This document shows, in pieces, positions 35,494-50,007 of a DNA stretch of 61,908 bases. The DNA is from an uncultured Bacteroidales bacterium (GTDB taxonomy: Bacteria > Bacteroidota > Bacteroidia > Bacteroidales > Muribaculaceae): contig CACWID010000013.1 in the NCBI GenBank assembly GCA_902760865.1, forward strand, positions 1-61,908, in the 5' to 3' direction. The notes beneath the pieces are model-generated. The model did not search any database and was not told the DNA's origin. It saw only the letters and a list, made by a program, of their open reading frames with translations. The position numbers and the translations under genes were made by a program. Each line of letters begins with the position of its first letter. The stretch's first letter is position 1.

Positions 35494-35930
35494 ACAAAAT
35501 GAAGAAATTTTCAAAAAAAAATTATTTTCTTTTGTAAACGGGTCGTTTGTCCGGTTATGGTGGCGTCGTCGAGGGTGGTGAACCGTCGGGACGGTTCTTT
35601 AGGCCGCGTCGTTTAGCTTTGGCCCGAAAGTACCGCCTCGGCTGGTCGCCCCCCTGCTTTCATTGCCCCCTTACTTTTTATATTAATGTATAATGATGGC
35701 GCGGGGTCTTGCATAGACTACCGAAAACAATAAATTTTGGCAATTATGTTGAAAAAATTTGTGAAAAGCTTGCATATTTAAAGTTATCATTATTAATTTG
35801 CGACAGTCAATTGGGTGTCCTCTGGATGCGATGAGTGAGGCGCCCACGTCTTCCGGTATCATTGGATGTGTCCGTAAGATGCTGACTGACAGATGATATA
35901 CCTAATTATTGATCTATCTAAACATTCGAC

Positions 35931-36305: not shown

Positions 36306-36345
36306 TGTAAAATATTTAGACATTTTGATGTAAAAAAAATAGACA
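36306..36345 (+). promoter_or_regulatory. Paired 17-bp operator upstream of the 36607 gene
   Basis: Two dyads, TGTAAAATATTTAGACA (36306-36322) and TGTAAAAAAAATAGACA (36329-36345), are centred 23 bp apart. Their centres lie 80 and 57 nt upstream of the -7 box at 36394. The same arrangement precedes the genes at 43271 and 48522. Confidence 0.75.
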
Positions 36346-36369
36346 ATTGCCATTTTTAGAGAAAATAGT

Positions 36370-36401
36370 TTTGGTGAACGGCGAGGTTACTCATAATTTT
36401 G
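36370..36401 (+). promoter_or_regulatory. Promoter of the 36607 gene
   Basis: TTTG (36370-36373), a 20-nt spacer and TAATTTTG (36394-36401). The leader to the ATG is about 200 nt. Confidence 0.75.
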
Positions 36402-36487
36402 TAGTGTAGAGGCCGAGACACTGTTGATGCTCTAACACTAAACATAAACGAAGAAGATATAGATTGCTTTATTTGTGGTTAAATTCT

Positions 36488-36537
36488 GTGAGGAGCGTCA
36501 TCGTGGCGCAGGCCGTGAGAAGCGCTCCTCACTTTTT
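36488..36537 (+). promoter_or_regulatory. Terminator-like hairpin inside the 36607 leader, possible attenuator
   Basis: A 10-bp stem GTGAGGAGCG/CGCTCCTCAC with a large loop is followed by TTTTT. It lies between the promoter (36394) and the start codon (36607), so transcripts must read through it. This suggests attenuation or a small leader RNA. Confidence 0.5.
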
Positions 36538-36606
36538 GATGAGACGAATAAACAGCAGACAGCATAACAATAACCCATACATTACTAACCTAAACTTAAT
36601 GTTATT

Positions 36607-39120
36607 ATGAGAAAGCTAATTTTCACATTCATGAGTCTGTTCATGGTCAGCACGGCTATGGCAGACAGCTATTTTTACATCGATGACATGGATGTCGACG
36701 GCGCTTACGGTCAGCAGGTCGTGATTCCCGTCAAGGCATCGTTCGGTGCGTATGTCAACGCCTTCCAGGTGGACATCACCTATCCTGAGGGCCTGACGCC
36801 AGTAAAGGTGGAGATGGGCGCTGACGCATGTCAGAGCTACTATGATCTGGACGGAATCGAAGATGTCGCTACTCCGTTTTTCACGTGTAATCCCGAGAAG
36901 ACCCGCATCATTGCGGCCTTTGCCGGTTTTGGTTACTGGGATCCCGACGGCAATGGGGAGTATGAGCCCTATGGTGCCGTCAAGTGGGCTGCCGGCGACT
37001 ACGACGAGATGATTCTGATCACCGTAAGAGTGGAAGAAGACTTCTATGGCGGAACGATTGTCGTTCAAACCGAGGTCGGCTCAAGCGATGACGCCCGTGG
37101 CGCCACCGTCAAAGACACAGGCGACGCTGAAGTGATTTTCACACGTGAGGCCTACATCACGGTTATCCCGGTACCCATGGAGCTGACAGGTCAGATCATT
37201 TATGAGTATGACGGTTATGATGAAGTAAGGATTTATTACTCCGGTGAAGAGCCTGTGAACATGGAAGTCGTCGTTAACGGCGAGTATGTCTATGGCGGTG
37301 AACCTGATTTTACGTACAATCTGCCCGAATTTGGCGTGTATGATTTTGTGGTAACCGCTTATTGTGATTGTTACAATCCCATGACTTATGAGTTTGTTAT
37401 CGATTTGCCGCAGCCAGTGACACCAGCTCCGACCTACACCATTGAAGATATGGGCAACACCTATGTCGTAACCGTTGAGGGCGAAGGTGACCTGCATCTT
37501 TATCTCTTCGGCGAGGAGGTGCCGAATCACTATGAGATTCCTCGGTGCTATGATGAGATGGTATATGAGTTTATGGCAACGGCCCAGATCCCTGGCTGGA
37601 TCCAGAGCGAATGCATCACCTTTACGGTCGTGGTTCCTGCCTTGGAGAAGCAGCAAGCAGAAGCTCCCATAATCGATTTGACGATGGATGACGCGAATGT
37701 GTATGTGAACATAGTCTGGCCCGAGAGTGATGGCGAATGTGTATTTACCGGCAATGACGTCTATTCGCGCGGCGAACAGGACTACGAGGTGACTGTAGAG
37801 GCCTACGTGACCGAGGGATATTCCTACTGTGAGAGCGAGCATGCCGTCGTGACCATCGTCGTTCCGGCTCTTGAAATACCCGAGCCCGAGGGCTACCTGC
37901 TCACCCTGGCCGATGCCGCCGTACTGCACGGCAATAGCGTTGTCATCCCCGTGTCGATGACCAACCGTGAGTCGGTGACCGCCTTCCAGACCGACCTGTA
38001 TCTGCCTGAGGGCTTCGAGTTGCAGGATGTAACGCTGTCTGACCGCAAGGCCGACCACCAGCTGATGCGCAACGTCCGCGAGGACGGCGCCGTCCGCATC
38101 CTGTGCTACTCACCGTCGCTGTCAGCGTTCAGCGGCAATGATGGCGAGCTGATGTACATCACCGTCAAGGTGCCCGACAGTGCCGCCGGCGACTATGAGC
38201 TGTTGCTGAAGAAGAGCCTGCTGACAATCGCTTCGTTTGACGAGGTGCGCTGTCCTGACGATGCCGGCACGCTGACCGTGAGGGCCTACATCCCCGGTGA
38301 CGTGAATGGCGACGGCGTAGTGACCGTGACCGATGTCGTTGTCACCGCTCAGTATATCATCGGCTTGAATCCCAGCCCGTTTGTCTTTGATGCCGCCGAC
38401 ATGAACGGCGACGACGATATCACCGTGACCGATGTCGTATTCATTGCCCGCCTGGTACTCAATCCCGACTTGGTTGACATGATGCGTGCTCCCGCCCTGG
38501 GCGTGAACAATGACGCCATGAGTGCCGATGGCATCCAGCTGCCGGCAGGCGAGACCCGCACAGTGACCATCGCCCTGGACAATGAGGTGGACTACACCGC
38601 CTTCCAGCTCGACATGCAGCTGCCCGAGGGCCTGACCGCCACCAACTTCCGCCTGACCAATCGTGCCGGCAGCCACACGCTGATTGCCAACATGCTCGAG
38701 GACGGCACACAGCGTGTGATGTGCTACTCGCCGCTGCTGAATGTCATCGACGGCCACGAGGGCGCATTGCTCACCTTCGACGTGACTGCCACCGGCAGTG
38801 TGACCGGCGACATCAATGTTGACGGCATCGAGATGGTCAGCGCCGCCTGCCAGACCGCCCGTCTGAACGGCTTCAGCATCCAGGTGAACGGCGACGTCAC
38901 CGGCGTGAGGGAGATGGTTGAGAACGTGCGCATCTACACCGACGGTCAGAACATCATCGTCGAGAGCCCTGTTGCCCAGCGCATCGTCATCAGCGATGTG
39001 GCAGGTCGCAGCTATGAAGTGGACGTTACCGAGGGCCGCAACGTGATCCCCGCCCGCACTGCTGGCGTGGCCATCGTCAAGGCCGGTAACCAGACCGCCA
39101 AGCTCATGATCAACAACTAA
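36607..39120 (+). CDS. Scaffoldin-like secreted protein with cohesin-like and dockerin modules
   Basis: An 837-residue secreted protein. After a signal peptide (residues 1-19) come a cohesin-like module (about 22-195, GQQVVIPVKASFGAYVNAFQ), two or three Ig-like repeats (about 200-420, each ending VVPALE), a second cohesin-like module (about 430-560, NSVVIPVSMTNRESVTAFQ), a dockerin with two calcium loops (GDVNGDGVVTVTDVVVTAQY and MNGDDDITVTDVVFIARL, about 562-625), a third cohesin-like module (about 640-760, TVTIALDNEVDYTAFQLDMQ) and a C-terminal tail. It is the most scaffold-like protein of the block and could bind the dockerins of its neighbours. The 39130 gene follows after 9 nt. The control region is a paired operator. 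Cohesin assignment rests on motif pattern only. Confidence 0.8.
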   Translation: MRKLIFTFMSLFMVSTAMADSYFYIDDMDVDGAYGQQVVIPVKASFGAYVNAFQVDITYPEGLTPVKVEMGADACQSYYDLDGIEDVATPFFTCNPEKTRIIAAFAGFGYWDPDGNGEYEPYGAVKWAAGDYDEMILITVRVEEDFYGGTIVVQTEVGSSDDARGATVKDTGDAEVIFTREAYITVIPVPMELTGQIIYEYDGYDEVRIYYSGEEPVNMEVVVNGEYVYGGEPDFTYNLPEFGVYDFVVTAYCDCYNPMTYEFVIDLPQPVTPAPTYTIEDMGNTYVVTVEGEGDLHLYLFGEEVPNHYEIPRCYDEMVYEFMATAQIPGWIQSECITFTVVVPALEKQQAEAPIIDLTMDDANVYVNIVWPESDGECVFTGNDVYSRGEQDYEVTVEAYVTEGYSYCESEHAVVTIVVPALEIPEPEGYLLTLADAAVLHGNSVVIPVSMTNRESVTAFQTDLYLPEGFELQDVTLSDRKADHQLMRNVREDGAVRILCYSPSLSAFSGNDGELMYITVKVPDSAAGDYELLLKKSLLTIASFDEVRCPDDAGTLTVRAYIPGDVNGDGVVTVTDVVVTAQYIIGLNPSPFVFDAADMNGDDDITVTDVVFIARLVLNPDLVDMMRAPALGVNNDAMSADGIQLPAGETRTVTIALDNEVDYTAFQLDMQLPEGLTATNFRLTNRAGSHTLIANMLEDGTQRVMCYSPLLNVIDGHEGALLTFDVTATGSVTGDINVDGIEMVSAACQTARLNGFSIQVNGDVTGVREMVENVRIYTDGQNIIVESPVAQRIVISDVAGRSYEVDVTEGRNVIPARTAGVAIVKAGNQTAKLMINN

Positions 39121-39129
39121 ACCGGTTGG

Positions 39130-39792
39130 ATGATGATACCCAGAAGTCTATTATCTATGCTTATGGTCGTTGCGGCAACTTTGTCGGTTGCCGCAACCGA
39201 CCTTTTCCATATTGAGGATTTCATGATGCAGCCTGGACAGACTGTTGAGGTAGAAATCCTGCTTGACAACGAGACGAGTTTCACTGCCTTCCAGACCGAC
39301 TTGAGCCTGCCCGAGGGCTTGTCGGTCGACATGCAGAGTGTGGCGCTGACCGGCCGCAAGGCCGAGGACCATGTGCTGGCGATCAATGTGCTGTCTAACG
39401 GCGACATCCGCATCATGTCTTACTCGATGATGATTCAGCCCTACAGCGGCACCAGCGGAACACTGGTGACCTTCAATGTCACTGCCAGCGAGTCGCTGAG
39501 CGGCCCCGTTGTCATCCGGCTGAAGAACAACCGCTTCACCAACTTGCAGGGGCGGGAAGTCCAGCTCGACGACACGAGTTGCACGGTGTTGGTCCCTAGT
39601 ATGGTCGGCGACGTGAACGGCTCGGGCGATGTGACCATTGCCGACGTGACGAAGCTGATCAACTATCTGCTCAGCAAGGACCCTTCCGCTTGTCTTCTCG
39701 AGAATGCCGACTTGAACGGCTCGGGTGATGTGACCATTGCCGACGTGACGATGCTGATCAACCGCCTGCTCAGGGGCGAGTTTGCCAACTGA
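39130..39792 (+). CDS. Secreted cohesin-like plus dockerin protein
   Basis: A 220-residue secreted protein with a signal peptide (residues 1-22). One cohesin-like domain follows (about 25-155, QTVEVEILLDNETSFTAFQ, LSLPEGLSVDMQSVALTGRK), very close in sequence to the modules of the 36607 protein. Then comes a complete type I dockerin (about 158-218) with two near-identical calcium loops, GDVNGSGDVTIADVT and DLNGSGDVTIADVT, each followed by a helix (LINYLL, LINRLL). With one module of each kind it could act as an adaptor that extends or caps a complex. It starts 9 nt after the 36607 stop and should be on the same mRNA. Confidence 0.82.
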   Translation: MMIPRSLLSMLMVVAATLSVAATDLFHIEDFMMQPGQTVEVEILLDNETSFTAFQTDLSLPEGLSVDMQSVALTGRKAEDHVLAINVLSNGDIRIMSYSMMIQPYSGTSGTLVTFNVTASESLSGPVVIRLKNNRFTNLQGREVQLDDTSCTVLVPSMVGDVNGSGDVTIADVTKLINYLLSKDPSACLLENADLNGSGDVTIADVTMLINRLLRGEFAN

Positions 39793-40043
39793 TACCGTGT
39801 TGACAGAACTTGCTTTTGAAAATAAGTAAGTTCGACGATGTCACATGCTGAAAACCGAGGATGTGTCATGATTACTGCTTCAAGCAATCATCGGGCTATG
39901 GCCCGGGACATACCGGAAATGAATTATGGCACATCCTTTTTCAATCAACAGTCGGTTATGGCTTCGTCGGGCTGTGGTTTGAAATTAACTGATAATGAGG
40001 AAGATACAAGAGAATTGCTATAAATTAATACCATTCAACAACT

Positions 40044-42977
40044 ATGAAACAAACAAAAAGTATCTTTAAAACCTTCTTGCTGCTGGTGGCACTGTCGTTG
40101 CCGCTGGTATCGTTCGCCCAGACCCAGTTCTGGTCAGGTGGCATCCACTATGAGGTGATGGACCCCTATACCGATTTCTATACCGTCAAGGTCATTGCAG
40201 CTGATGAACAAGGTTATAGCGGCGAGATCACAATCCCGCGGATTGTTTATTGTGAGGCTTACGGCAACTATGGCGGTCATTTCATGAAGGCTTGCCAAGT
40301 CACTGAGATCGGCGAGGGCGCCTTCCGCGACTGTACCGGCTTGACTGGCGTGTCGTTGCCCGTCTCAGTGAATACAATCGGGAAAAATGCCTTCTACGGT
40401 TGCTCGTCACTGACCCGTGTGAACCTCAATTCGGGCCTGCAGACCATCTGTGCCTCGGCATTCGGTTACTGCACCAGCCTGACAGACATCGTGCTGCCCA
40501 ACTCGGTCACGAGGATGGAGGCCAACGTCTTCTATGGCTGCACGTCGCTGGCCCATGTTAAGCTGTCGAGTAATGCGAAGGAGCTGCTGAGCACCTTCCA
40601 GGGCTGCACCAGCCTCGCCTCGATTGACATCCCGGATAAGGTGACAAAACTGGATGGCACCTTCCAGGGCTGCAGCGCCTTGACGACTGTCAAGTTGCCT
40701 AAGGCCCTGACGACCATCGGTGCCAACGCCTTTGACGGATGCAGCTTGCTGCCGCGCCTGTATCTGCCCAATCTGGTCACTACCATCGGATCCAGGGCAT
40801 TTGCCGACACCCGTTTCGACTATCTGGAACTGCCGGCTTCGGTCACGAGCATCGAGGGAGATGCATTTGACGGAAACACCCAGTTGGCCAATGTCGTCGT
40901 GCGCTCCGAGAATCCGCCGCTGATGGCCAGCCAGAGTGTTTTCACTGACGACACCTATGGCCTGGCGTTGCTGAGTGTCCCCGAGGCAGCTGTCGCCTCC
41001 TATCAGTCGACCGACTGGTGGAACGTGTTTGAACATGTGGCGGGCATTGCCGCTAACAGCCTTTATGACTTTGAGGTTGACGGCATCTGCTACCTGCGCA
41101 CCGGTCCTGGTACGGTCGACGTGACCTACCGCGACAAGAACTACAATTGCTACAGCGGCGATGTGGTCATCCCCGCTACTGTGACCCACGACAACGTGAC
41201 CTATAGCGTGACGGGCATCGGTAACTCGGCCTTCCGCTCTTGCTCAGACCTGACGAGCGTAACCATTCCGGCAAGCGTGTCAGTCATCGGCGAGAATGCG
41301 TTCTATAGTTGCTACCGTCTGACAGAAATAGAGATTCCCGAGGCGGTCACTTCCATCGGTGACGGGGCATTCCAGCGTTGCAAAGGGTTGATGTCACTGA
41401 CCATCCCGGAGAATGTAACCTCACTGGGCAGCAACGCCTTCTACACCTACTACAACTCCACGCCTTCCCTCACGACCCTCACGTGGAATGCGCGTGATTG
41501 CTGGACCAGTGGCGACTTATATGCCTATTACCTGAAGACAGTGAACATCGGTGACCAGGTAGAGGTGCTGCCGCCCAATTTCGCCCGTGGTGCAGATATC
41601 ACGACGGTTGATCTGCCCTTGTCTCTCAAGACCATCGGCGCAAGTGCATTTGATGGCTGTGATAGTCTGAAGAGCCTGACCATCCCCCTGAATGTATCCA
41701 GCATCGGCGAATATGCCTTGAGGAATACCGGGATCAGATCGTTCACATGGAATGCCCGTGAATGCTGGACCAACGGAGACTTGAACTGGCCCTGGTATTA
41801 TACCATAGGATTGTCGCAGGTGTTTATCGGCGACCAGGTTGAGGTGCTTCCCCGCAACTTTGTCTGCAACAGCAATGTGTCATCGTTTGAAGTTCCCCGC
41901 TCAGTTCGGATTATCGGTCCAGGGGCATACAAGTCATGTTCACAACTCACTGGCCATCTTGAGATTCCCGACTGGATCGAGCTTGTATGCGACGACGCCT
42001 TTTATGACTGCACCAATATCAGGAGCCTAACCGTCGGCAAGAACGTTACCAGCATCGGCGAACATGCTTTCAGCAATTACTACTATTATAATGACTACTT
42101 GGATTCTATCACCTGGAATGCCCGCAACTGTATGTTTATGGGTATGTCCTATTGTCCCAGTGTCACCCAGATAACGATAGGAGACGAAGTGGAGTCTCTT
42201 CCCCAATACTTCGGCGGCTCCTCATCCATCAAGTCGATAGATATTCCGGAAAGTGTCAAGACCATTGATGATCATGCTTTTGAATTCTGTGACAGTCTGA
42301 CCAGCGTGACAATCCCCAATTCAGTCACATCGCTTGGCAATTATGCGTTTAATTATTCTGGCCTGACCAGCGCGAAGCTATCTGATGCACTCACGACGAT
42401 ACCGGAGTATGCCTTCATGGGGTGCAGGAATTTGGCTGACGTGACCTTGGGCAATGCAGTCACGACCATTGAGACCTATGCCTTTGAAAGCTGTGAGGGC
42501 CTTAAGGAAGTGGAACTGCCCAATACGCTGACAACAATCGGCTACGGCGCATTTAGCTGGTCGGGACTGACCAGCGTGACGATACCGGCTTCGGTGACGT
42601 CGATAGGTGAATATGCCTTTGCTTATTGCCGTAGCATGACCGATGTGACGAGCTTGGCATTGTTGCCTCCGACCATTGGAAGCTCCACATTTGAAGATGT
42701 TTACAACAGAGCGACGCTCCATGTTACCACACCGGCAATGGATGACTATAGTGCCCATGAATACTGGTCGCGCTTCAACACCATCGTGGCCATTGCCGAC
42801 CAGACGCCTGGTGACCTGAACGGCGACGGCCGTCTGAGCATCGGTGACGTCACGTCGCTGATCGGACTCATCCTGACTGGCAATGTCACCGGCAATCCCA
42901 TCGCCGACGTGAACGGCGACGGCATAGTCAATATCAGTGACGTCACGGCCCTGATCAATAAGTTGCTTGTTCAATAA
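40044..42977 (+). CDS. BspA-like LRR protein with C-terminal dockerin
   Basis: A 977-residue secreted protein with a signal peptide (residues 1-25, ending VSFAQ). Two long arrays of LRR_5/BspA repeats (about 85-330 and 395-890) have units such as VTKIGxxAFxxCxxLTSVTIP. Unusual inserted units read TWNARDCWTSGDLYAYY and TWNARNCMFMG, which break the repeat period. Residues 345-385 form a linker (VDGICYLRTGPGTVDVTY) also found in the 46442 protein. The last 60 residues are a dockerin with two calcium loops (GDLNGDGRLSIGDVTSL and DVNGDGIVNISDVTAL). The likely role is an adhesin presented on a cohesin scaffold (inference). No good promoter was found in the 251-nt gap upstream, so readthrough from 36607-39130 is possible. 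Confidence 0.85.
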   Translation: MKQTKSIFKTFLLLVALSLPLVSFAQTQFWSGGIHYEVMDPYTDFYTVKVIAADEQGYSGEITIPRIVYCEAYGNYGGHFMKACQVTEIGEGAFRDCTGLTGVSLPVSVNTIGKNAFYGCSSLTRVNLNSGLQTICASAFGYCTSLTDIVLPNSVTRMEANVFYGCTSLAHVKLSSNAKELLSTFQGCTSLASIDIPDKVTKLDGTFQGCSALTTVKLPKALTTIGANAFDGCSLLPRLYLPNLVTTIGSRAFADTRFDYLELPASVTSIEGDAFDGNTQLANVVVRSENPPLMASQSVFTDDTYGLALLSVPEAAVASYQSTDWWNVFEHVAGIAANSLYDFEVDGICYLRTGPGTVDVTYRDKNYNCYSGDVVIPATVTHDNVTYSVTGIGNSAFRSCSDLTSVTIPASVSVIGENAFYSCYRLTEIEIPEAVTSIGDGAFQRCKGLMSLTIPENVTSLGSNAFYTYYNSTPSLTTLTWNARDCWTSGDLYAYYLKTVNIGDQVEVLPPNFARGADITTVDLPLSLKTIGASAFDGCDSLKSLTIPLNVSSIGEYALRNTGIRSFTWNARECWTNGDLNWPWYYTIGLSQVFIGDQVEVLPRNFVCNSNVSSFEVPRSVRIIGPGAYKSCSQLTGHLEIPDWIELVCDDAFYDCTNIRSLTVGKNVTSIGEHAFSNYYYYNDYLDSITWNARNCMFMGMSYCPSVTQITIGDEVESLPQYFGGSSSIKSIDIPESVKTIDDHAFEFCDSLTSVTIPNSVTSLGNYAFNYSGLTSAKLSDALTTIPEYAFMGCRNLADVTLGNAVTTIETYAFESCEGLKEVELPNTLTTIGYGAFSWSGLTSVTIPASVTSIGEYAFAYCRSMTDVTSLALLPPTIGSSTFEDVYNRATLHVTTPAMDDYSAHEYWSRFNTIVAIADQTPGDLNGDGRLSIGDVTSLIGLILTGNVTGNPIADVNGDGIVNISDVTALINKLLVQ

Positions 42978-43121
42978 ATGAGTGATGATAGAGCTATTTT
43001 TCCACTTGCGAATCTTTAATTGATAATAGACTGCAGAGTGGTATCATGCAGGGGAGATGCGACGAGCAAATCGTGCTTGTCGCATCTCTTGTCATATCGG
43101 GCGGGCATCCAGGGGTCTTAG

Positions 43122-43161
43122 TGTCTAATTTTTTGACACTACACTGTCTAAAAATTAGACA
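43122..43161 (+). promoter_or_regulatory. Paired 17-bp operator upstream of the C10 protease gene
   Basis: TGTCTAATTTTTTGACA (43122-43138) and the perfect dyad TGTCTAAAAATTAGACA (43145-43161) are centred 23 bp apart. Their centres lie 81 and 58 nt upstream of the -7 box at 43211. Confidence 0.78.
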
Positions 43162-43185
43162 CTTTCGGAATTAGGCCGTGAGAGA

Positions 43186-43218
43186 TTTGTGTGAACAGGC
43201 GTTTTTTGCGTAAGTTTG
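43186..43218 (+). promoter_or_regulatory. Promoter of the C10 protease gene
   Basis: TTTG (43186-43189), a 21-nt spacer and TAAGTTTG (43211-43218), 52 nt before the ATG. Confidence 0.75.
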
Positions 43219-43270
43219 TGAAAAGGAAAAATTATCATATTATTATTCATATCTAATCAATTTAAAGCAA

Positions 43271-45298
43271 ATGAAAAAGATACTTTACCTGACCATCGCA
43301 ATGATGCTGGCCATGATGGATGCCAGTGCTGGAACCATCGGTGAGGCTGCGGCCCGCGAGCTTGCCGCCCGGTTCCTGAACAGCCGTGTGGACCGGGGGC
43401 GGTTGCGTGCCGTGGTGCCCTCGGGCGAGATGCAGTTGCTCTATACCGGCATGAGCGACGTGTCGTCGGGCCTTGCTGCCTACTACATCTATAACACCGA
43501 TGTCAGCTATGTGGTCGTGGCCGGCGACGACCTCTGCCGCGACATCCTGGTCTGGGGCGACCGCCCGCTGGACTTGAGCAACATGCCGTGCGGTCTGGAG
43601 GCCCTGCTCGATACCTACAAGCATGACTTCGACTACCTGCAGTCACATCCCGGCGAGGACGGACTGGTGCGCTCGCCGCGCCTCACTGAGACCCTCGAGA
43701 GCATCCCGCCGCTGCTGACCGAGCAGTGGTCGCAGGGAGTCCCTTATAACAACTATTGCCCCGTGTACAATGGCGAGGCCTGCGTGACGGGCTGTGCCTG
43801 CACGTCGCTGTCGATGGTGCTCCACTACTGGCAGCATGCCAGCCTGAGTAATGCGTTGCCCGGTTATATCACCGGCACGCTGGGCATCAGCATGGGAGCT
43901 CTGGAGCCCGTCGAGTTTGACTGGGCAAACATGCTTGACGTCTATAAGCAGGGTAACTACACCGACCAGCAGGGTGCCGCCGTGGCGCGGCTGATGCAGT
44001 ACGTCGGCCAAGCCGAGATGATGGACTACGGGCCTGACGGCAGTGGCGCCACCGTGTACAGCATTTTCAATGCAGTCAGGCTGTTCGGCTATGACTCGCG
44101 CGTCAGGGTGGAGGAACAGATGAACCACCGTCCTGATGTGTGGCGCGATTTAATCATGGATGAATTGAAGGCAGGGCGCCCCATCGTGTACACGGCAGCT
44201 GATATGAGCTATAATGTCGGTCACGCCTTCAACCTCGATGGCTATGATGCCGAGAGTGACATGTATCACATCAACTTCGGCTGGGGTGGCAACGGCGATG
44301 CCTATTGTGCCCTGAACGCTTTCTCAGGCGGAGGCATGACTTTCAACTACTATCAGCGGATGATCGTGGGCATCCAGCCGCCTGAGGTCTTTGAACCTGC
44401 TCTCAATGTCTCGACCGACGCGCTGGACTTCGGCAACGCCTACAATGGCTATCATGAGCGCCGTACATTCACCGTCACGGGCAAGGACCTGACGGGCAAC
44501 ATCACGCTGAAGCTCGGCGGTCGTGATTCGATCCATTACAGTGTCACTCCACGCACCATCACGCCCGCCGAAGCGGCCGCTGGCGTCGAGGTGACCGTCT
44601 CGCTGTTCCCCTACAGCCGGGGGCAGCTCAATGCCACCTTGACCCTGTCGAGCCCCGACGTGGACGATATCAACATCTCGCTCACGGGCTTCGGCATCAA
44701 GACCGGAGCTTTTATCCGGCCAAATGCCAGCTCGATGGAATTTGAAGCCACGGTCGGCGAGACCGTCATGCAGCAGCTCGAAGTCGAGAAGCACAATTTT
44801 GACGGCTGGATTGCTTCACCCCGATTTGGAAGTTCCGCAGTTGACACCGCCGAGCACATTATCATCCCGATTACCCCGCCCACTCTCAACTCCCCGATCC
44901 TTTACGAGATTGTGGGTGATGAGAGCTTCAGCGTCAAGTCTTGTATGGTGACCTACACCTCCACCATGACGGACAGCGTCGCCCTCAGCGTTGTCTATCA
45001 CCCGACGACAGCGGGCACACATCATGCTCAGCTCATCCTCTCGACATCGACCTTTGGCCTCTACCCGGCCCATCCGGTGACCGTCGAGCTGACGGGTGTC
45101 GCTGCCGAGGGTCCGCTGGGCGGAGACATGAACGGCGACGGCGTGCTGACAGTGAGCGATGTGGTGCAGCTTATCGATGTGCTGGTCAACAACGATGGCG
45201 GCATGCAACGTCTCTTCCCCTCAGACGTGAACGGCGACGGCCTGTTGAATCTAACGGACCTCACGACGCTCATCGAGTTGGTGCTGTCCGCTCTCTAG
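43271..45298 (+). CDS. Secreted C10-family cysteine protease (streptopain-like) with dockerin
   Basis: A 675-residue secreted protease. After the signal peptide (residues 1-20) comes a propeptide-like region (about 22-140) and a C10 peptidase domain (about 145-375). Catalytic Cys175 lies in TGCACTSLSMVLHYW, His318 in NVGHAFNLDGYD, and the Trp-Gly segment in HINFGWGGNGDAY. The usual Ala-Thr-Ala-Met after the Cys is replaced by Ala-Cys-Thr-Ser. Ig-like beta domains follow (about 385-605), then a dockerin (GDMNGDGVLTVSDVVQLIDV and DVNGDGLLNLTDLTTLIELV, about 615-675). C10 enzymes are best known from SpeB and the B. fragilis Bfp proteases. The dockerin suggests attachment to a surface complex. 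The upstream paired operator links it to the 36607, 45651 and 48522 genes. Confidence 0.9.
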   Translation: MKKILYLTIAMMLAMMDASAGTIGEAAARELAARFLNSRVDRGRLRAVVPSGEMQLLYTGMSDVSSGLAAYYIYNTDVSYVVVAGDDLCRDILVWGDRPLDLSNMPCGLEALLDTYKHDFDYLQSHPGEDGLVRSPRLTETLESIPPLLTEQWSQGVPYNNYCPVYNGEACVTGCACTSLSMVLHYWQHASLSNALPGYITGTLGISMGALEPVEFDWANMLDVYKQGNYTDQQGAAVARLMQYVGQAEMMDYGPDGSGATVYSIFNAVRLFGYDSRVRVEEQMNHRPDVWRDLIMDELKAGRPIVYTAADMSYNVGHAFNLDGYDAESDMYHINFGWGGNGDAYCALNAFSGGGMTFNYYQRMIVGIQPPEVFEPALNVSTDALDFGNAYNGYHERRTFTVTGKDLTGNITLKLGGRDSIHYSVTPRTITPAEAAAGVEVTVSLFPYSRGQLNATLTLSSPDVDDINISLTGFGIKTGAFIRPNASSMEFEATVGETVMQQLEVEKHNFDGWIASPRFGSSAVDTAEHIIIPITPPTLNSPILYEIVGDESFSVKSCMVTYTSTMTDSVALSVVYHPTTAGTHHAQLILSTSTFGLYPAHPVTVELTGVAAEGPLGGDMNGDGVLTVSDVVQLIDVLVNNDGGMQRLFPSDVNGDGLLNLTDLTTLIELVLSAL

Positions 45299-45334
45299 AC
45301 CGCAGCAGTCCCGACATGACAAGAAGTCGAAAAG

Positions 45335-45351
45335 TGTAAAAAAATTAGACA
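45335..45351 (+). promoter_or_regulatory. Single 17-bp operator upstream of the 45651 gene
   Basis: TGTAAAAAAATTAGACA is centred 79 nt upstream of the -7 box at 45422. That is the position of the distal site in the paired operators. No proximal copy is recognisable; a terminator occupies that place. Confidence 0.6.
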
Positions 45352-45362
45352 CTTTTTGCTCT

Positions 45363-45398
45363 AAAGGAGCTTTTTTCAGAAAAAAGGCTCCTTTTTTG
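45363..45398 (+). terminator. Terminator after the C10 protease gene
   Basis: AAAGGAGC plus a T-run pairs with an A-run plus GCTCCTTT (one bulged G), a 3-nt loop, and six T at the end. Confidence 0.75.
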
Positions 45399-45429
45399 TT
45401 GCTGAATAGACGGATATTGATTAAGTTTG
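45399..45429 (+). promoter_or_regulatory. Promoter of the 45651 gene
   Basis: TTG (45399-45401), a 20-nt spacer and TAAGTTTG (45422-45429), with a leader of about 215 nt. Confidence 0.6.
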
Positions 45430-45650
45430 CGGCAGAGACTCCATTGGATTGATATGATTATCAGGATTCAAGTATCGGGTGAAGTGAAATGCTTCGCTCA
45501 TCTGTTAGGGTGATGGGACTGTCCCCAAAACCATTATGAGAAGTGCTGCTATACTCTTTGTTCAACCGATGTAGGATCATTAACCAGACCGCAAGTCTCG
45601 TGGCGACTTGCCCAACAAGAAATAATAACTATATAATACATCTATTGATT

Positions 45651-46343
45651 ATGAAACATTTTGTTACTTGGATTGCATGCCTTTGCCTCGGTGTCCCCTG
45701 CCTGTGCCAAGCCCAGGCCGTTGAAGCTGAAGGCGAATCGACCGAGCCTGTCGTGCTCCGGGCCGTGATACCCGATGAGCCGACGGTGACCTTTGTGAAC
45801 CACCAGACCGAGGAGTTCACAGCCCTTGTCGGCCAGAGCATTAAGCGCACTGGTCTCATCCGTTTTGCCGATGCCGAGATTCCGCCCGATCCCAACCTGC
45901 CCGTGGTAAGGGCTCCCAGAGGCGGATCCATGAGCCTGAATGTTGGCGCTTCGATAATTTCGTCAGACTATTCGCTCTCGATTCAGGGCGAAGACAGAGA
46001 CCAGTTTATGGCTGTGATTGTCAAGACGAGTTTAACGTCTAACGAGTGCACCGTGACCATCACCTACAGGCCCCGCAGCGAGGGCGTGCACAGGGCGACC
46101 GTCGTGGCCACTTGTCTCAATGCCGGTGTGCCCACGGTGACTATTCCTGTGGTAGGCGAGACCACTGGAACGCTGGGCGACATCAACAGTGACGGCCTGG
46201 TGAACATCATTGACTTGACCGGCATGATCAACTGGCTGCTGATCGGCAAGGACGATAATCCTGCCAGCGACGTTGACGACGACGGCGAGTTCTCCATCCG
46301 TGACGTGACCCACCAGATCAACCGATTACTGACCAACCAGTAA
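45651..46343 (+). CDS. Secreted Ig-like protein with C-terminal dockerin
   Basis: A 230-residue secreted protein starting at MKHFVTWIACLCLGVPCLCQ, a good signal peptide. An upstream in-frame ATG (45543) is unlikely because the signal sequence would then be internal. The middle (about 40-165) is an Ig-like domain with FVNHQTEEFTALVGQSIKRT and CTVTITYRPRSEGVHRATVV, related to the Ig-like repeats of the C10 protease. The C-terminal dockerin has two calcium loops (GDINSDGLVNIIDLTGM and DVDDDGEFSIRDVTHQ). No catalytic residues are evident, so it is a structural or binding component. It is controlled by a single-site version of the shared operator. Confidence 0.82.
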   Translation: MKHFVTWIACLCLGVPCLCQAQAVEAEGESTEPVVLRAVIPDEPTVTFVNHQTEEFTALVGQSIKRTGLIRFADAEIPPDPNLPVVRAPRGGSMSLNVGASIISSDYSLSIQGEDRDQFMAVIVKTSLTSNECTVTITYRPRSEGVHRATVVATCLNAGVPTVTIPVVGETTGTLGDINSDGLVNIIDLTGMINWLLIGKDDNPASDVDDDGEFSIRDVTHQINRLLTNQ

Positions 46344-46344
46344 A

Positions 46345-46375
46345 CCGCTATGCGTCCCACATCGGGGCGCATAGT
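46345..46375 (+). terminator. Terminator-like hairpin after the 45651 gene
   Basis: A 7-bp stem CTATGCG/CGCATAG followed by TTATTT. A second hairpin (TGGCATGCC/GGCATGCCA, 46390-46413) lies just downstream. Confidence 0.5.
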
Positions 46376-46441
46376 TATTTATATAATGATGGCATGCCTC
46401 TTTCGGCATGCCAGACTAATTGTTTAACCTTAAATTGAGAA

Positions 46442-48238
46442 ATGATGAAGAAGTTACTCTTTTTGTTATTGACAATGCTGGCAACATCGCCGACAGTTGT
46501 CGGGGCTACGAGACAGACGCCCGAGCCAGTGATCGAGATTGTTGAGTCGCAGGATTACTACACCATTCATGTTACAGGTCTAGGTCAATTGACGGTCCGG
46601 GTGACCGGAGTTTGGGTAGGCGAATCTGGAGAATACCATGAAGATCTCATGGATGAGGATGTGGTAGACGGTGAATATTCCTTTGTGGTCAATCGTATGT
46701 ATGACTCAGACTTGCATCTGATTGTAAGAGCAACCGCACAGGTCGATGGTGAACAACCCAGCGAGACGGCGGAACATGAGTTCTGGGTGGTCAAGTACTT
46801 TAGGCTGCCAGATCCCGAAATCACCTTCGAAGAGAATTACGATGGCGTACTCGTCGATGTGACAGTTGACGGGTATGGCGACTTGAATTGCGAGATCTAT
46901 GTCGATGGCCGTTCGATAGATTGTAGCAACTTGCCGGTTTTCATCGATCGCTCTGACGAGTTGCAGCAGGTTGATGTGAGCGCTACTACAACAGTCTCAG
47001 GAGGATATGGGTGGATTCCCGGCTCGAGTAATGCGACCTTTGAATTGGAACCCTACATCCCCTCACCTGATCCCATAATTATGGTCGAGGAACTGGACGA
47101 TTGTGTCAGAATCGATGCCATCGGTGATGGCGAGATCTATTTATTTGTTAATGGCAATCCGGTTGAGAACCCCTGTTATGTAGAGCGCACCGAACAAGAG
47201 CAAAATCTGGAAATCACGGCTTATGCTATTCTGGGGGATTATGTGCCGAGTACCACGGTTTACATGGAATATGTTGTTGCTCCGCTGATAGTGCCGGAGC
47301 CGATAGAGCAAACGATTGCGCCGACGATGAGTTTTGAATGTGGTGAGCAATCATGCATAGTCTGCATTAATGAAAGCGAACCTTCTGATATCTATTACAG
47401 GATAGGGACCTATGATGAAGGCACTGGTACTTTTGTCTTTGGCGACTGGATGCCATATCAGTTCGCCCTAGAAATCACGATACAGGGCAAGTATCGGGTT
47501 GAGGCGTATGCCGTCGCCCCAGGAAAAGAGAGTAGCCTCACCTGTGCTATTGAATTTGTATTTAACCCTGTGATTGCACCGCTGTATGACTTTGAGAAAG
47601 ACGGCATCTACTACATTGTCATTGGCAGTGACAAGGTGGAGGTGTGCAGAGGTTCGAACCTGTACAACAGCTATAGCGGTCAGGTCAACATCCCGGCAAC
47701 GGTGACCTACGGCGGGGTTACCTATATGGTGACCGGCATTGCCAGTGATGCCTTCCATGACTGCCCCAATCTGACAGGCGTGAGCATCGGTGCCTATGTA
47801 ACTTCTATCGGCAACTGCGCGTTCTTCAATTGCAGCTCATTGACGAGCGTGACGCTGGGCGACTATGTGATCGATGTTGACGCTTACGCCTTCGCCGGTT
47901 GCACGTCACTGGTGAGCGTGACGTTGGGTAGTGGTGTGGCGCGCATCGGGGAGATGGCATTCTCGGGTTGCACCTCGCTGAACTCTGTCACCTGCAAGGC
48001 GGCAACGCCCCCTGTGGTAAGTGACCGCAACGCCTTTGATTGCTATGAGAGTGCAACACTCTACGTGTACCCCGCAGTCAAGGACCGTTACCGCAACGGC
48101 AGCATTTGGAGTTTGTTCCAGATCATTGAGGCCCAGGACAAGGTGGCTCCGAGTATTGGCGACGTCAACGGCGACGGCGTGACGACCGTCAGCGACGTCA
48201 CCAGGCTGATCAACATGCTGCTGACTGGAGCAAATTAA
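46442..48238 (+). CDS. Secreted Ig-repeat/LRR protein with C-terminal dockerin repeat
   Basis: A 598-residue secreted protein with a signal peptide (residues 1-23). Three Ig-like repeats (about 28-285; cores DYYTIHVTGLGQLTVRV, VLVDVTVDGYGDLNCEIYVD, VRIDAIGDGEIYLFVNG) resemble those of the 36607 and 57239 proteins. A chitobiase-C-like module (about 290-380, DIYYRIGTYDEGTGTFVFG), a linker, and a short LRR_5 array (about 425-550) follow. Only one dockerin calcium repeat ends the protein (GDVNGDGVTTVSDVTRLINM), so it may be a half-dockerin. It reads like a fusion of a repeat protein with an LRR adhesin. An alternative start is the second ATG (46445). Confidence 0.82.
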   Translation: MMKKLLFLLLTMLATSPTVVGATRQTPEPVIEIVESQDYYTIHVTGLGQLTVRVTGVWVGESGEYHEDLMDEDVVDGEYSFVVNRMYDSDLHLIVRATAQVDGEQPSETAEHEFWVVKYFRLPDPEITFEENYDGVLVDVTVDGYGDLNCEIYVDGRSIDCSNLPVFIDRSDELQQVDVSATTTVSGGYGWIPGSSNATFELEPYIPSPDPIIMVEELDDCVRIDAIGDGEIYLFVNGNPVENPCYVERTEQEQNLEITAYAILGDYVPSTTVYMEYVVAPLIVPEPIEQTIAPTMSFECGEQSCIVCINESEPSDIYYRIGTYDEGTGTFVFGDWMPYQFALEITIQGKYRVEAYAVAPGKESSLTCAIEFVFNPVIAPLYDFEKDGIYYIVIGSDKVEVCRGSNLYNSYSGQVNIPATVTYGGVTYMVTGIASDAFHDCPNLTGVSIGAYVTSIGNCAFFNCSSLTSVTLGDYVIDVDAYAFAGCTSLVSVTLGSGVARIGEMAFSGCTSLNSVTCKAATPPVVSDRNAFDCYESATLYVYPAVKDRYRNGSIWSLFQIIEAQDKVAPSIGDVNGDGVTTVSDVTRLINMLLTGAN

Positions 48239-48267
48239 GTTTCACTCTGTTGGAACCCAAAAGACAG

Positions 48268-48298
48268 GCGCGCCCATCGCATCAGCGACGGGGCGCGC
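48268..48298 (+). terminator. GC-rich terminator-like hairpin after the 46442 gene
   Basis: An 8-bp stem GCGCGCCC/GGGCGCGC with a 15-nt loop. There is no T-run. Confidence 0.5.
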
Positions 48299-48380
48299 TT
48301 GCCGTTGTCATGGGGGAGGCCTGTGGGCCTGACAAGGACTGCTATAGGGTTTAAGCCTGCGATGGGCGGATAGGTAGGTT

Positions 48381-48420
48381 TGTCAAAATATTAGACGGGA
48401 TTGTGTATAAAAATTTGACA
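48381..48420 (+). promoter_or_regulatory. Paired 17-bp operator upstream of the 48522 lipoprotein gene
   Basis: TGTCAAAATATTAGACG (48381-48397) and TGTATAAAAATTTGACA (48404-48420) are centred 23 bp apart. Their centres lie 81 and 58 nt upstream of the -7 box at 48470. Confidence 0.75.
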
Positions 48421-48444
48421 ATCGGCGATTTATGGGAAATAATA

Positions 48445-48477
48445 TTTGCGGTGGGTGTGACGCTACCTATATCTTTG
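48445..48477 (+). promoter_or_regulatory. Promoter of the 48522 lipoprotein gene
   Basis: TTTG (48445-48448), a 21-nt spacer and TATCTTTG (48470-48477), 44 nt before the ATG. It starts transcription downstream of the alternative ATG at 48432 and so fixes the start at 48522. Confidence 0.78.
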
Positions 48478-48521
48478 TGACATCAAAGCAAATTTATTTA
48501 TTATCTAAACATTATAAGACT

Positions 48522-48944
48522 ATGAAAACGAATCAATTTTTCAATCAAGTGCGCCAGATGTTGCTGGCAATTGTGTGCCTCGCCGTGTTTGCCCCTCTCG
48601 CCTCGTGTGTCAACGATGATGAGCCGACGGCCAGTGTTGAATACTATCTGCAGGTGGAGTCCAGGAACAAGCTGGAGTCGGTCAACGGCATCTCGCCGTC
48701 GTCCAAGGACGACATGCTGGGACACCTGACCAGTGAGATGCGGGAGAAGATCCATGATGTCTATCCCGTTCCCGACGCGCAGGGTGCCGACGTTCAGGTC
48801 CTGGTGGCCTGTGACGAGGTGTATCAGCGCTACCTGACGATGGACCTGAAGTCCGATTGCGATTGCGTCGCAGTGCTGTGCCGCGTGAAGAAAGAAGGCG
48901 GTATCGTCAGGCAAACCGTGAACCTGAAGACCTACCGCCTCTGA
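48522..48944 (+). CDS. Small lipoprotein of the CxDDEP family
   Basis: A 140-residue lipoprotein. The signal peptide ends in the lipobox APLASC, followed by VNDDEP. It carries the same blocks as the proteins at 9831 and 10780: VEYYLQVESRNKL, LTSEMREKIHDVYPVPDAQG, VLVACDEVYQRYLTM, then a C-terminal VKKEGGIVRQTVNLKTYRL. The start is set by the signal peptide and by the promoter at 48470. It shares the paired operator with the scaffoldin-like gene and the C10 protease gene, the strongest hint that this family serves the dockerin system. The biochemical function is unknown. Confidence 0.8.
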   Translation: MKTNQFFNQVRQMLLAIVCLAVFAPLASCVNDDEPTASVEYYLQVESRNKLESVNGISPSSKDDMLGHLTSEMREKIHDVYPVPDAQGADVQVLVACDEVYQRYLTMDLKSDCDCVAVLCRVKKEGGIVRQTVNLKTYRL

Positions 48945-49182: not shown

Positions 49183-50007
49183 ATGAAATATGATGTTTTC
49201 ATCTCTCATGCCAGCGAGGACAGAGAGATAGCACAGGAACTGTGCAACTATCTCGAGCCTGAGATCAAGTGCTGGATTGCCCCGCGCAATGTCACGGGCC
49301 TGTATGCCCGTTCAATTATTAACGGCATCAAGGAGTCCCAAGTGATGGTGCTTGTCTTTTCAGAGCATGCCAACGAGTCCCCTCATGTCGAGAATGAGGT
49401 TGATAATGCCTTCAACGAGGGCAAGGTCATTATTCCGTTCAGGATTGAAGATAAGCAGATGTCGGACGTCCTGCTTTACTACCTGCGCAAGAGCCACTAT
49501 GTGGACGGATTCCCTGATGCAGTATCTGCATTTGGTGAACTCAAGAATCAGATTATCAACAACCTGCCAGAACTGCGTCAGGAACGAGACCTGGATGATG
49601 CTCTGAAATCAATAGCGTCAATCAAGAGTTATGACCTCGATAAACTGAAAAAAATGTTTGGCATGGGTCCTGCGGGCTCACCTATTGATGACGACTTGAC
49701 ATTTGATGATAATGCCACCAGTACTCGTTATGACATGCTCCAGAATGAAGCTGGCGAGATTTTGATACTGATTAACTATCAGAATACCGAGCCTGACGGA
49801 CCGAGAATTGTGTATGACGGTGGTGAAAAGGCTCTGCTGTATAGGAGCAGGGAGAGTGCATTCATGCTCAACAACATTAATCTCGAAGCACGAGTGCCCT
49901 TGAGTCAGGTTGATGAGGTGCTGGTTGTCGAAATCCAGGACGATGATGTCGCTCGTGAGTATAAAGTACCCGTGAGATTAGTAAAGAATCTCGATGCCCT
50001 CGGATGA
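49183..50007 (+). CDS. TIR-domain protein
   Basis: A 274-residue cytoplasmic protein. Residues 1-130 form a TIR domain of the bacterial TIR_2-like type: YDVFISHASEDREIAQELCN, CWIAPRNVTGLYARSIINGI, VMVLVFSEHANESPHVENEV and KVIIPFRIED. Glu70 or Glu72 occupies the place of the NAD-cleaving glutamate. Residues 130-165 look helical, and 165-274 form a separate beta-rich domain (EILILINYQNTEPDGPRIVY, ARVPLSQVDEVLVVEIQDDD) that I do not recognise. Bacterial TIR proteins act in anti-phage defence as NADases or signal generators. No defence partner gene is adjacent, so function is open. No signal peptide is present. Confidence 0.85.
   Translation: MKYDVFISHASEDREIAQELCNYLEPEIKCWIAPRNVTGLYARSIINGIKESQVMVLVFSEHANESPHVENEVDNAFNEGKVIIPFRIEDKQMSDVLLYYLRKSHYVDGFPDAVSAFGELKNQIINNLPELRQERDLDDALKSIASIKSYDLDKLKKMFGMGPAGSPIDDDLTFDDNATSTRYDMLQNEAGEILILINYQNTEPDGPRIVYDGGEKALLYRSRESAFMLNNINLEARVPLSQVDEVLVVEIQDDDVAREYKVPVRLVKNLDALG

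Follow-up and report, generated by a model that had tools for sequence, protein, structure and literature searches.

Several described regulators resemble parts of the system considered here. The redox regulators RegA, PrrA and ActR of Alphaproteobacteria consist of a receiver and a Fis-type helix-turn-helix (HTH), with no AAA+ domain. At the fha promoter of Bordetella, BvgA has a strong distal inverted repeat, followed in the direction of the promoter by weaker copies spaced about two helical turns. NtrC-type regulators of sigma54 promoters carry an AAA+ ATPase between the receiver and the Fis-type domain. The NtrC proteins of Rhodobacter capsulatus and Caulobacter are described as bacterial enhancer-binding proteins (bEBPs) that act at sigma70 promoters without sigma54 (PMC10274813). 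We analyzed a 17-bp dyad, TGTMWAA-N3-TTWGACA, that recurs in a 61,908-nt stretch of DNA from an uncultured Bacteroidales bacterium of the Muribaculaceae. This stretch, the window, is contig CACWID010000013.1 (C13) of a 3.35-Mb draft genome (GCA_902760865.1). The dyad marks a genuine group of some two dozen co-controlled genes, most of which encode secreted proteins, a label based on N-termini read by eye and on domain types. In our estimate, it is roughly 85% probable that the dyad serves as operator to a two-component regulator that combines a receiver with an NtrC-kind Fis-type HTH, lacks the AAA+ ATPase, and acts at primary-sigma promoters.

The sequence-only reading of the window had proposed that the dyad defines an undescribed regulon, with an activator that binds upstream as two dimers. 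This proposal is supported beyond the window: the promoter sites are intergenic, precede genes for dockerin and related secreted proteins, and have a fixed geometry. We scanned the whole genome with a consensus pattern, not a weight matrix, and used the reversed pattern as the control. At no more than one mismatch, the dyad matched 32 times on the forward strand and 29 times on the reverse (61 in all), compared with 2 and 4 (6 in all) for the control; at no more than two mismatches the excess was weaker (216 versus 126). The closer matches fall at 39 separate places, and the sequence was inspected for 37. At 28 of these 37 places the dyads form 21 promoters, in which a TAnnTTTG box lies 79–81 nt from the distal dyad centre or 56–58 nt from the proximal one. 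These promoters were found through the dyad alone, with no box in the search. The enrichment and the fixed box distance therefore indicate that the motif is more than chance. Promoters with a single dyad are the majority genome-wide (12/21), and the other nine have a second copy 23 bp on, with two mismatches in two cases. The box stands at 81 nt in eight of the nine double promoters and at 80 nt in the ninth, compared with 79 or 80 nt in all 12 single-copy promoters. The same tendency is seen at 129 loci of the genus (81 nt in 44/62 double versus 5/58 single promoters), with offsets that are biased since these loci were partly picked by a pattern permitting only 79–81 nt; this holds for loci L042–L101, whereas the offsets of the window's own genome and of loci L172–L229, discussed below, are free of this bias. 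Across the genus, paired dyads are 23 bp apart in 69/72 cases and 31 bp apart in the other three. When 22 promoters were oriented by hand, with in-gene and box-less places set apart, the alignment shared A/T-rich columns and a TTTG starting about 24 nt 5' of the box.

Of the nine remaining places, five lack a box (three of these are intragenic), and one is a near miss (C47:16538) with TATCTTTA at 79 nt in place of TAnnTTTG. The other three are copies of one repeated string, TGTATAAAAATTAAACA, and the two places whose sequence was not inspected are further copies. This string is identical at C1:25911, C2:23042, C7:128478, C8:9010 and C28:36988 of the genome (G000), mimics the dyad with one mismatch, and is probably a small repeat outside the regulon. 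Its copy at C1:25911 has a box at 56 nt, which we counted as chance.

In the window, all seven dyad copies lie where the sequence-only reading had placed them, on the forward strand before four genes, and no other copy occurs at up to one mismatch. Before the gene at 36607, the distal dyad (36306..36322, exact) and the proximal dyad (36329..36345, one mismatch) are centred 80 and 57 nt from a predicted −7 box, TAATTTTG (36394..36401). Before the gene at 43271, two exact copies (43122..43138 and 43145..43161) are centred 81 and 58 nt from TAAGTTTG (43211..43218). The promoter of the gene at 45651 has only a distal copy (45335..45351, exact), 79 nt from a second TAAGTTTG (45422..45429); a terminator-like hairpin occupies the proximal position. 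Before the gene at 48522, a distal copy with one mismatch (48381..48397) and an exact proximal copy (48404..48420) are centred 81 and 58 nt from TATCTTTG (48470..48477). The spacing is exactly 23 bp at each of the three double promoters, again as first described.

What reads the dyad? A candidate was met among the genes beside regulon promoters in relatives, where a response regulator occurs together with a kinase. The window's genome encodes this regulator, of 175 aa, outside the window on the reverse strand of contig C2 (107448–107975), adjoining a gene that looks kinase-like by eye. Domain make-up was read on the copies of two relatives, G334 (85% identical to that of the window's genome, C2:107451–107975) and G340: a Response_reg domain at residues 7–121 (E 4e-22) and a Fis-type HTH_8 domain at 133–174, with nothing else, and so no AAA+ domain, above the Pfam cut-off. 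The neighbour of the regulator in G340 has a HATPase_c domain (Pfam, E 4e-16), and the neighbour in the window's genome appears alike by eye. The receiver and the adjoining histidine kinase are the features expected of a response regulator, and the two proteins would form a two-component system.

The regulator and the motif occur together. A composite pattern of box and dyad at the fixed distance was found in 32/101 genomes of the genus (0/101 for the reversed control). All 28 genomes with the regulator, the window's included, are motif-positive, compared with 4/73 without it (Fisher p 5e-21, uncorrected for kinship). In a second family, all eight regulator-bearing genomes of genus g140 have the dyad. 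The co-occurrence within the window's genus is partly a matter of shared ancestry. Stronger evidence is the linkage of the dyad to the regulator gene itself. In 80 homologous regulator loci, taken from named records that include three of Xylanibacter ruminicola, the dyad lies no more than 400 bp upstream of the gene in 71 (0/80 for the reversed control), and 152 sites versus 1 for the control were found over the 962 kb that these loci span. Of these loci, 19 come from genomes already counted for the window's genus. The dyad stands upstream in 14 of the 19, and in 57 of the other 61.

The 58 loci L172–L229, which are at most 77% identical to the query, show how the pair is arranged at the regulator gene. 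Fifty-five have the dyad, and all 58 pairs are spaced 23 bp. A divergent box lies 81 nt from the regulator-nearest dyad in 52 of the 55 loci, at 82 nt in two, and is lacking in one. The box of the regulator's own promoter lies 40–41 nt from the far dyad in 44 of the 55, with the near dyad overlapping the −33 region. We therefore infer that the same pair activates the divergent genes and represses the regulator. The 81-nt distance recurs here in loci chosen regardless of geometry, and no other observation speaks as strongly for the proposed direct contact with polymerase. In X. ruminicola (L225), read by eye, a run of TolC-like, HlyD-like and two FtsX-like genes faces the regulator–kinase pair across the dyad. 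The 22 genomes reached through homologous loci, three of them of g140, have 1–8 exact dyad matches on the richer strand; in these the regulon is small and partly local, and several of the matches listed are near the regulator.

We propose the following mechanism. The phosphorylated regulator would bind the distal dyad as one dimer, and a second dimer would occupy the dyad 23 bp nearer the promoter, which is often degenerate. The bound protein could then contact RNA polymerase at a primary-sigma promoter (TTTG / TAnnTTTG), with the −7 box 79–81 nt from the distal centre. This contact would turn on the regulon, which comprises dockerin-bearing and further secreted proteins, peptidases, ABC permeases, a membrane peptide of 28 aa and a small RNA. 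At the regulator's own locus in distant relatives, the pair would activate a divergent promoter 81 nt away, that of the TolC-like efflux run in X. ruminicola, while overlapping and repressing the promoter of the regulator.

How does this regulator compare with the described systems? Its receiver is like those of NtrC-type regulators and matches PDB 2qr3 (E 7e-42), which we take to be a receiver from Bacteroides fragilis whose parent protein is full-length. Full-length NtrC-type homologues in Bacteroidales share with it a Fis-type HTH containing RQTLYNK (15/17) and a TGT-N11-ACA dyad (13/27). However, those homologues lie in frames of 447–594 aa and have dyad pairs 21–22 bp apart, whereas the regulator here has 175 aa, 23-bp pairs and TAnnTTTG boxes instead of −24/−12 promoters. 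Of the features of a sigma54 enhancer-binding protein, it thus has the Fis-type HTH and the dyad, and lacks the AAA+ domain with its GAFTGA-type loop and the −24/−12 promoters. The RegA, PrrA and ActR family offers the same domain order, and its model NF033791 (NCBIfam) aligns over residues 6–169; however, the score is 64.4 bits compared with a curated cut-off of 250, and the lineage is another one. The operator and regulon of that family also differ from those here. BvgA is of the NarL/LuxR type, in contrast to the Fis-type HTH of the candidate. The NtrC proteins of R. capsulatus and Caulobacter retain the AAA+ domain without the GAFTGA loop, whereas in the present case nothing of that domain is left and the operator has a rigid geometry. 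We also considered HaeR of P. gingivalis, for which the available portion of the source (PMC3764172) describes no dyad or Fis domain to compare.

Several observations weigh against assigning the dyad to this regulator. The regulator gene of the window's genome has no dyad within 500 nt upstream, and none occurs between its flanking genes at up to three mismatches. Among 25 parsed regulator loci of the genus (of 28), eight are without an upstream dyad, although in one of these, G344, a dyad pair does precede the probable start. A single clade accounts for much of the co-occurrence within the genus, and four genomes (G256, G311, G336 and G352) have one or two composite sites and no detected regulator. 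In g140, the dyad is present in 3/7 genomes without the regulator, with seven matches in G650, and in G647, which bears the regulator, the dyad matches only once, as often as the control. Incomplete genomes may explain these exceptions, or the site may be read by a full-length homologue too. Individual targets also turn over. The genome scan that the sequence-only reading had called for, run with our simplified consensus, upheld the fixed geometry, the dockerin and secreted targets and the recurrence in relatives, but not the constancy of single targets: at the orthologous DUF805/menA locus, only 8/15 regulator-positive genomes have a site. None of 15 regulator-negative genomes has one, a weak control because 14 of them also lack the DUF805 neighbour. 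Two genomes, G217 and G272, were mis-placed in the menA comparison of negatives. Regulator and motif may have been lost independently in one negative genome, G237 (94% complete): it lacks both, although its menA is 82% identical to that of the window's genome, within the range of the positives (76–84%) and above that of the 14 other negatives (58–70%). In the same region, the site at C10:81667 had been tried as a menA promoter with a box at 95 nt. This was wrong, and the other strand fits the DUF805 gene, with a box at 80 nt.

The missing dyad at the regulator gene of the window's genome leaves some room for a real regulon read by another protein, such as a LuxR/NarL-type, CRP-type or phage-repressor-like regulator, in which case the short regulator would be a passenger of the clade or a target. 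BvgA-like and lambda-like regulators are also known to use 17-bp dyads and tandem spacings of 22–24 bp. However, LuxR/NarL (GerE) proteins, the class that we searched for (CRP-, LysR- and XRE-type proteins were not searched), occur in 40/40 genomes tested, motif-positive and motif-negative (20 genomes) alike, and were rejected as the regulator. The presence of the dyad at 71/80 regulator loci and its recurrence with full-length homologues that share RQTLYNK also make another reader quite unlikely. A different doubt concerns the sign of regulation. If the dyads were repressor operators, loss or dephosphorylation of the regulator would induce the regulon, and the pair at the regulator's own gene does overlap a promoter, with the box 40–41 nt from the far centre. 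At the 21 promoters of the window's genome, in contrast, the dyads lie 56–81 nt upstream of the −7 box, at fixed distances and clear of the −33 element. Activators that make contact with polymerase typically show such a constant helical phase upstream. Repression of the targets is thus unlikely, and the geometry points to activation.

Could the sites have spread by copying, with a repeat or with duplicated paralogues of the BspA and dockerin families, so that a shared promoter would not mean co-regulation? Expanded families are prominent among 19 target proteins (12 with dockerin, 7 with LRR_5), a repeated string mimics the motif at five places, and the promoters share A/T-rich columns between dyad and box as well. 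Apart from these columns and the TTTG, however, the stretches separating dyad and box vary greatly by eye, an indication that promoters of unrelated targets align no further than motif, boxes and A/T tracts. The targets also extend to M16, S41 and DUF805 proteins and, among relatives, to ABC permeases, an RNA and a micropeptide. We regard copying as very improbable. An operator of the AAA+-less two-component regulator remains the reading that we favour.

How did such a regulator arise? In the order, 93/295 genomes have a match to it at E 1e-30. Among the matches listed, the near-full short form in a frame of 180–225 aa was found only in the window's genome, G566 and G647; most others lie in frames of about 430–600 aa, and a few listed frames have 213–361 aa. 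The full-length homologues, in frames of 447–594 aa, have a Walker-A match and RQTLYNK each in 15/17 parsed loci, and the four sequences displayed have GAFTDA or GSFTDA. The dyad is present in 13/27 full-length loci (1/27 for the reversed control), with pairs 21 bp (5) or 22 bp (4) apart and never 23. In two of them (L232 and L238), a near-consensus −24/−12 element lies 56–93 nt from the dyads, whereas 0/22 regulon promoters have such an element within 300 nt. The short forms make one group with support of 99/95 in an unrooted tree of 118 receiver columns, built on the 37 rows, out of 48, that could be parsed, without the window genome's own copy. Loss of sigma54 is not the cause of the loss of the AAA+ domain, because rpoN is retained in 30/30 genomes. 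FtsX-type ABC permeases, which by eye adjoin the regulator here as well, are predicted to be regulated by sigma54 in Bacteroidia (PMC12316311).

Since full-length homologues share the dyad while spacing and promoters are altered, it seems that the ATPase was lost from an enhancer-binding regulator whose operator stayed. The likely history runs from a sigma54 activator of an efflux cluster, through an AAA+ loss that left the operator in place, to primary-sigma promoters and then to a secretome regulon in the window's genus. Loss of the AAA+ domain appears to have gone with the change of promoter class and the 23-bp spacing; we infer the direction of this change. Two counts weigh against this history. 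In 14 of the 27 full-length loci, the sequence examined contains no dyad, and 11 of the 13 dyad-bearing loci either lack a −24/−12 element (7) or have only one that lies beyond 200 nt (4). Overall, we consider it fairly probable that a sigma54 regulator lost its ATPase once in Bacteroidales and became a rigid class-I-like activator, with pairs going from 21–22 to 23 bp, and then, in one rumen-type genus, grew from a local efflux switch to a regulon of about two dozen promoters that governs a dockerin-type secretome together with a micropeptide and a structured small RNA.

In the family outside the genus, the bare dyad is near chance level (297 genomes surveyed, 40 of them within the genus). 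Four of these outside genomes (G044, G066, G077 and G098) have dyad pairs 20 or 21 bp apart. Single 21-bp pairs lie at G044 C48:28750/28771, G066 C43:40668/40689 and G098 C48:74051/74072; they have a spacing found at full-length sigma54-type homologues and are perhaps operators of such proteins.

The targets are varied. By Pfam, the 19 target proteins include 12 with type I dockerin, 7 with BspA-type leucine-rich repeats (LRR_5), 3 C10 peptidases, 2 with S41, and one each with M16, DUF805 and cohesin; two have no family. A twentieth scanned protein, UbiA, is a divergent neighbour and was left out of these counts. Of the 22 promoters, the remaining three precede the genes of an 86-aa protein and of a hydrophobic peptide of 28 aa, and a transcript in which no frame is conserved. 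Relatives have sites before similar kinds of targets and add ABC permeases of the FtsX type, putative lipoproteins and further DUF805-like proteins, all named by eye, as were TolC, HlyD and most kinases throughout. Near one M16 peptidase target, with two genes between, L036 encodes a 514-aa response regulator on the reverse strand (370–1914) that resembles PorX by eye.

A hydrophobic peptide of 28–29 aa recurs in five genomes (L032:8802, L056:1477, L076:1541, L090:1562, L087:7094 and downstream), with a dyad 141–176 nt before each start codon; in one case its gene is divergent from the regulator gene. Likewise, a small RNA without a conserved reading frame, consisting of a GAAGCTGNCTTGCTAG core and a variable hairpin, is found in four genomes with a dyad 208–250 nt before each copy (L022:18000–18290, L059:3322–3551, L092:1623–1932 and, on the reverse strand, L120 at about 1134–1234). 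The constancy of the core is partly by construction, as it was defined by a purpose-made pattern. A search of five loci against Rfam gave no family at the gathering score; one stretch of 361 bases had five weak sub-threshold matches.

This work goes beyond the sequence-only reading in naming a likely regulator, in its kinship with sigma54-type activators, and in targets past dockerin proteins (peptidases, ABC permeases, DUF805, a micropeptide and an RNA). To our knowledge, no activator has been assigned to the dockerin-bearing secretome of rumen Bacteroidales. Among the matches listed in a literature search, we recognized no description of the regulator, its dyad or a dockerin regulon, and for dockerin and regulon in Bacteroidetes and Prevotella the single paper listed was on lignocellulose consortia. 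Operator, promoter geometry and candidate two-component system are now at hand together, and are testable in cultured X. ruminicola. If the proposed history is true, these genomes hold a natural record of an ATP-driven sigma54 activator rewired by the loss of one domain with its binding site unchanged. Both versions would then persist in living genomes, with the change marked by spacings of 21–22 versus 23 bp.

The four genes behind the window's promoters are all on the forward strand. The first (36607..39120) encodes one cohesin and one type I dockerin domain (PF00963, PF00404) and, from the 9-nt gap, is perhaps co-operonic with a dockerin gene at 39130–39792. Its leader contains a perfect 10-bp inverted repeat followed by TTTTT (GTGAGGAGCG / CGCTCCTCAC; 36488–36537), which could be a terminator or an attenuator. 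The second (43271..45298) encodes a C10 peptidase with Spi-type inhibitor and dockerin domains (PF01640, PF13734, PF00404). The terminator-like hairpin at 45358–45399, between the operator and the −7 box of the next promoter, perhaps belongs to this upstream C10 gene. The third (45651..46343) encodes a protein with a C-terminal dockerin domain (PF00404) and, by its spacing, is perhaps co-operonic with an LRR_5 gene at 46442. The fourth (48522..48944) encodes a 140-aa putative lipoprotein whose N-terminus ends, by eye, in a lipobox-like LASC; a Pfam scan found no family at E 1e-4. The string TCTAAACATT at 48504–48513 also stands shortly 5' of the start codons of regulon genes at L042, L060, L070, L082 and L100, and could be a leader or translation element widely used in the window's genus. 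Weak dyad-like matches at 35915 (two mismatches) and 48502 are due to this recurring string. Directly behind the regulon cluster, at 49183–50007, lies a gene for a TIR-domain protein (TIR_2, with a weaker ThsB_TIR match).

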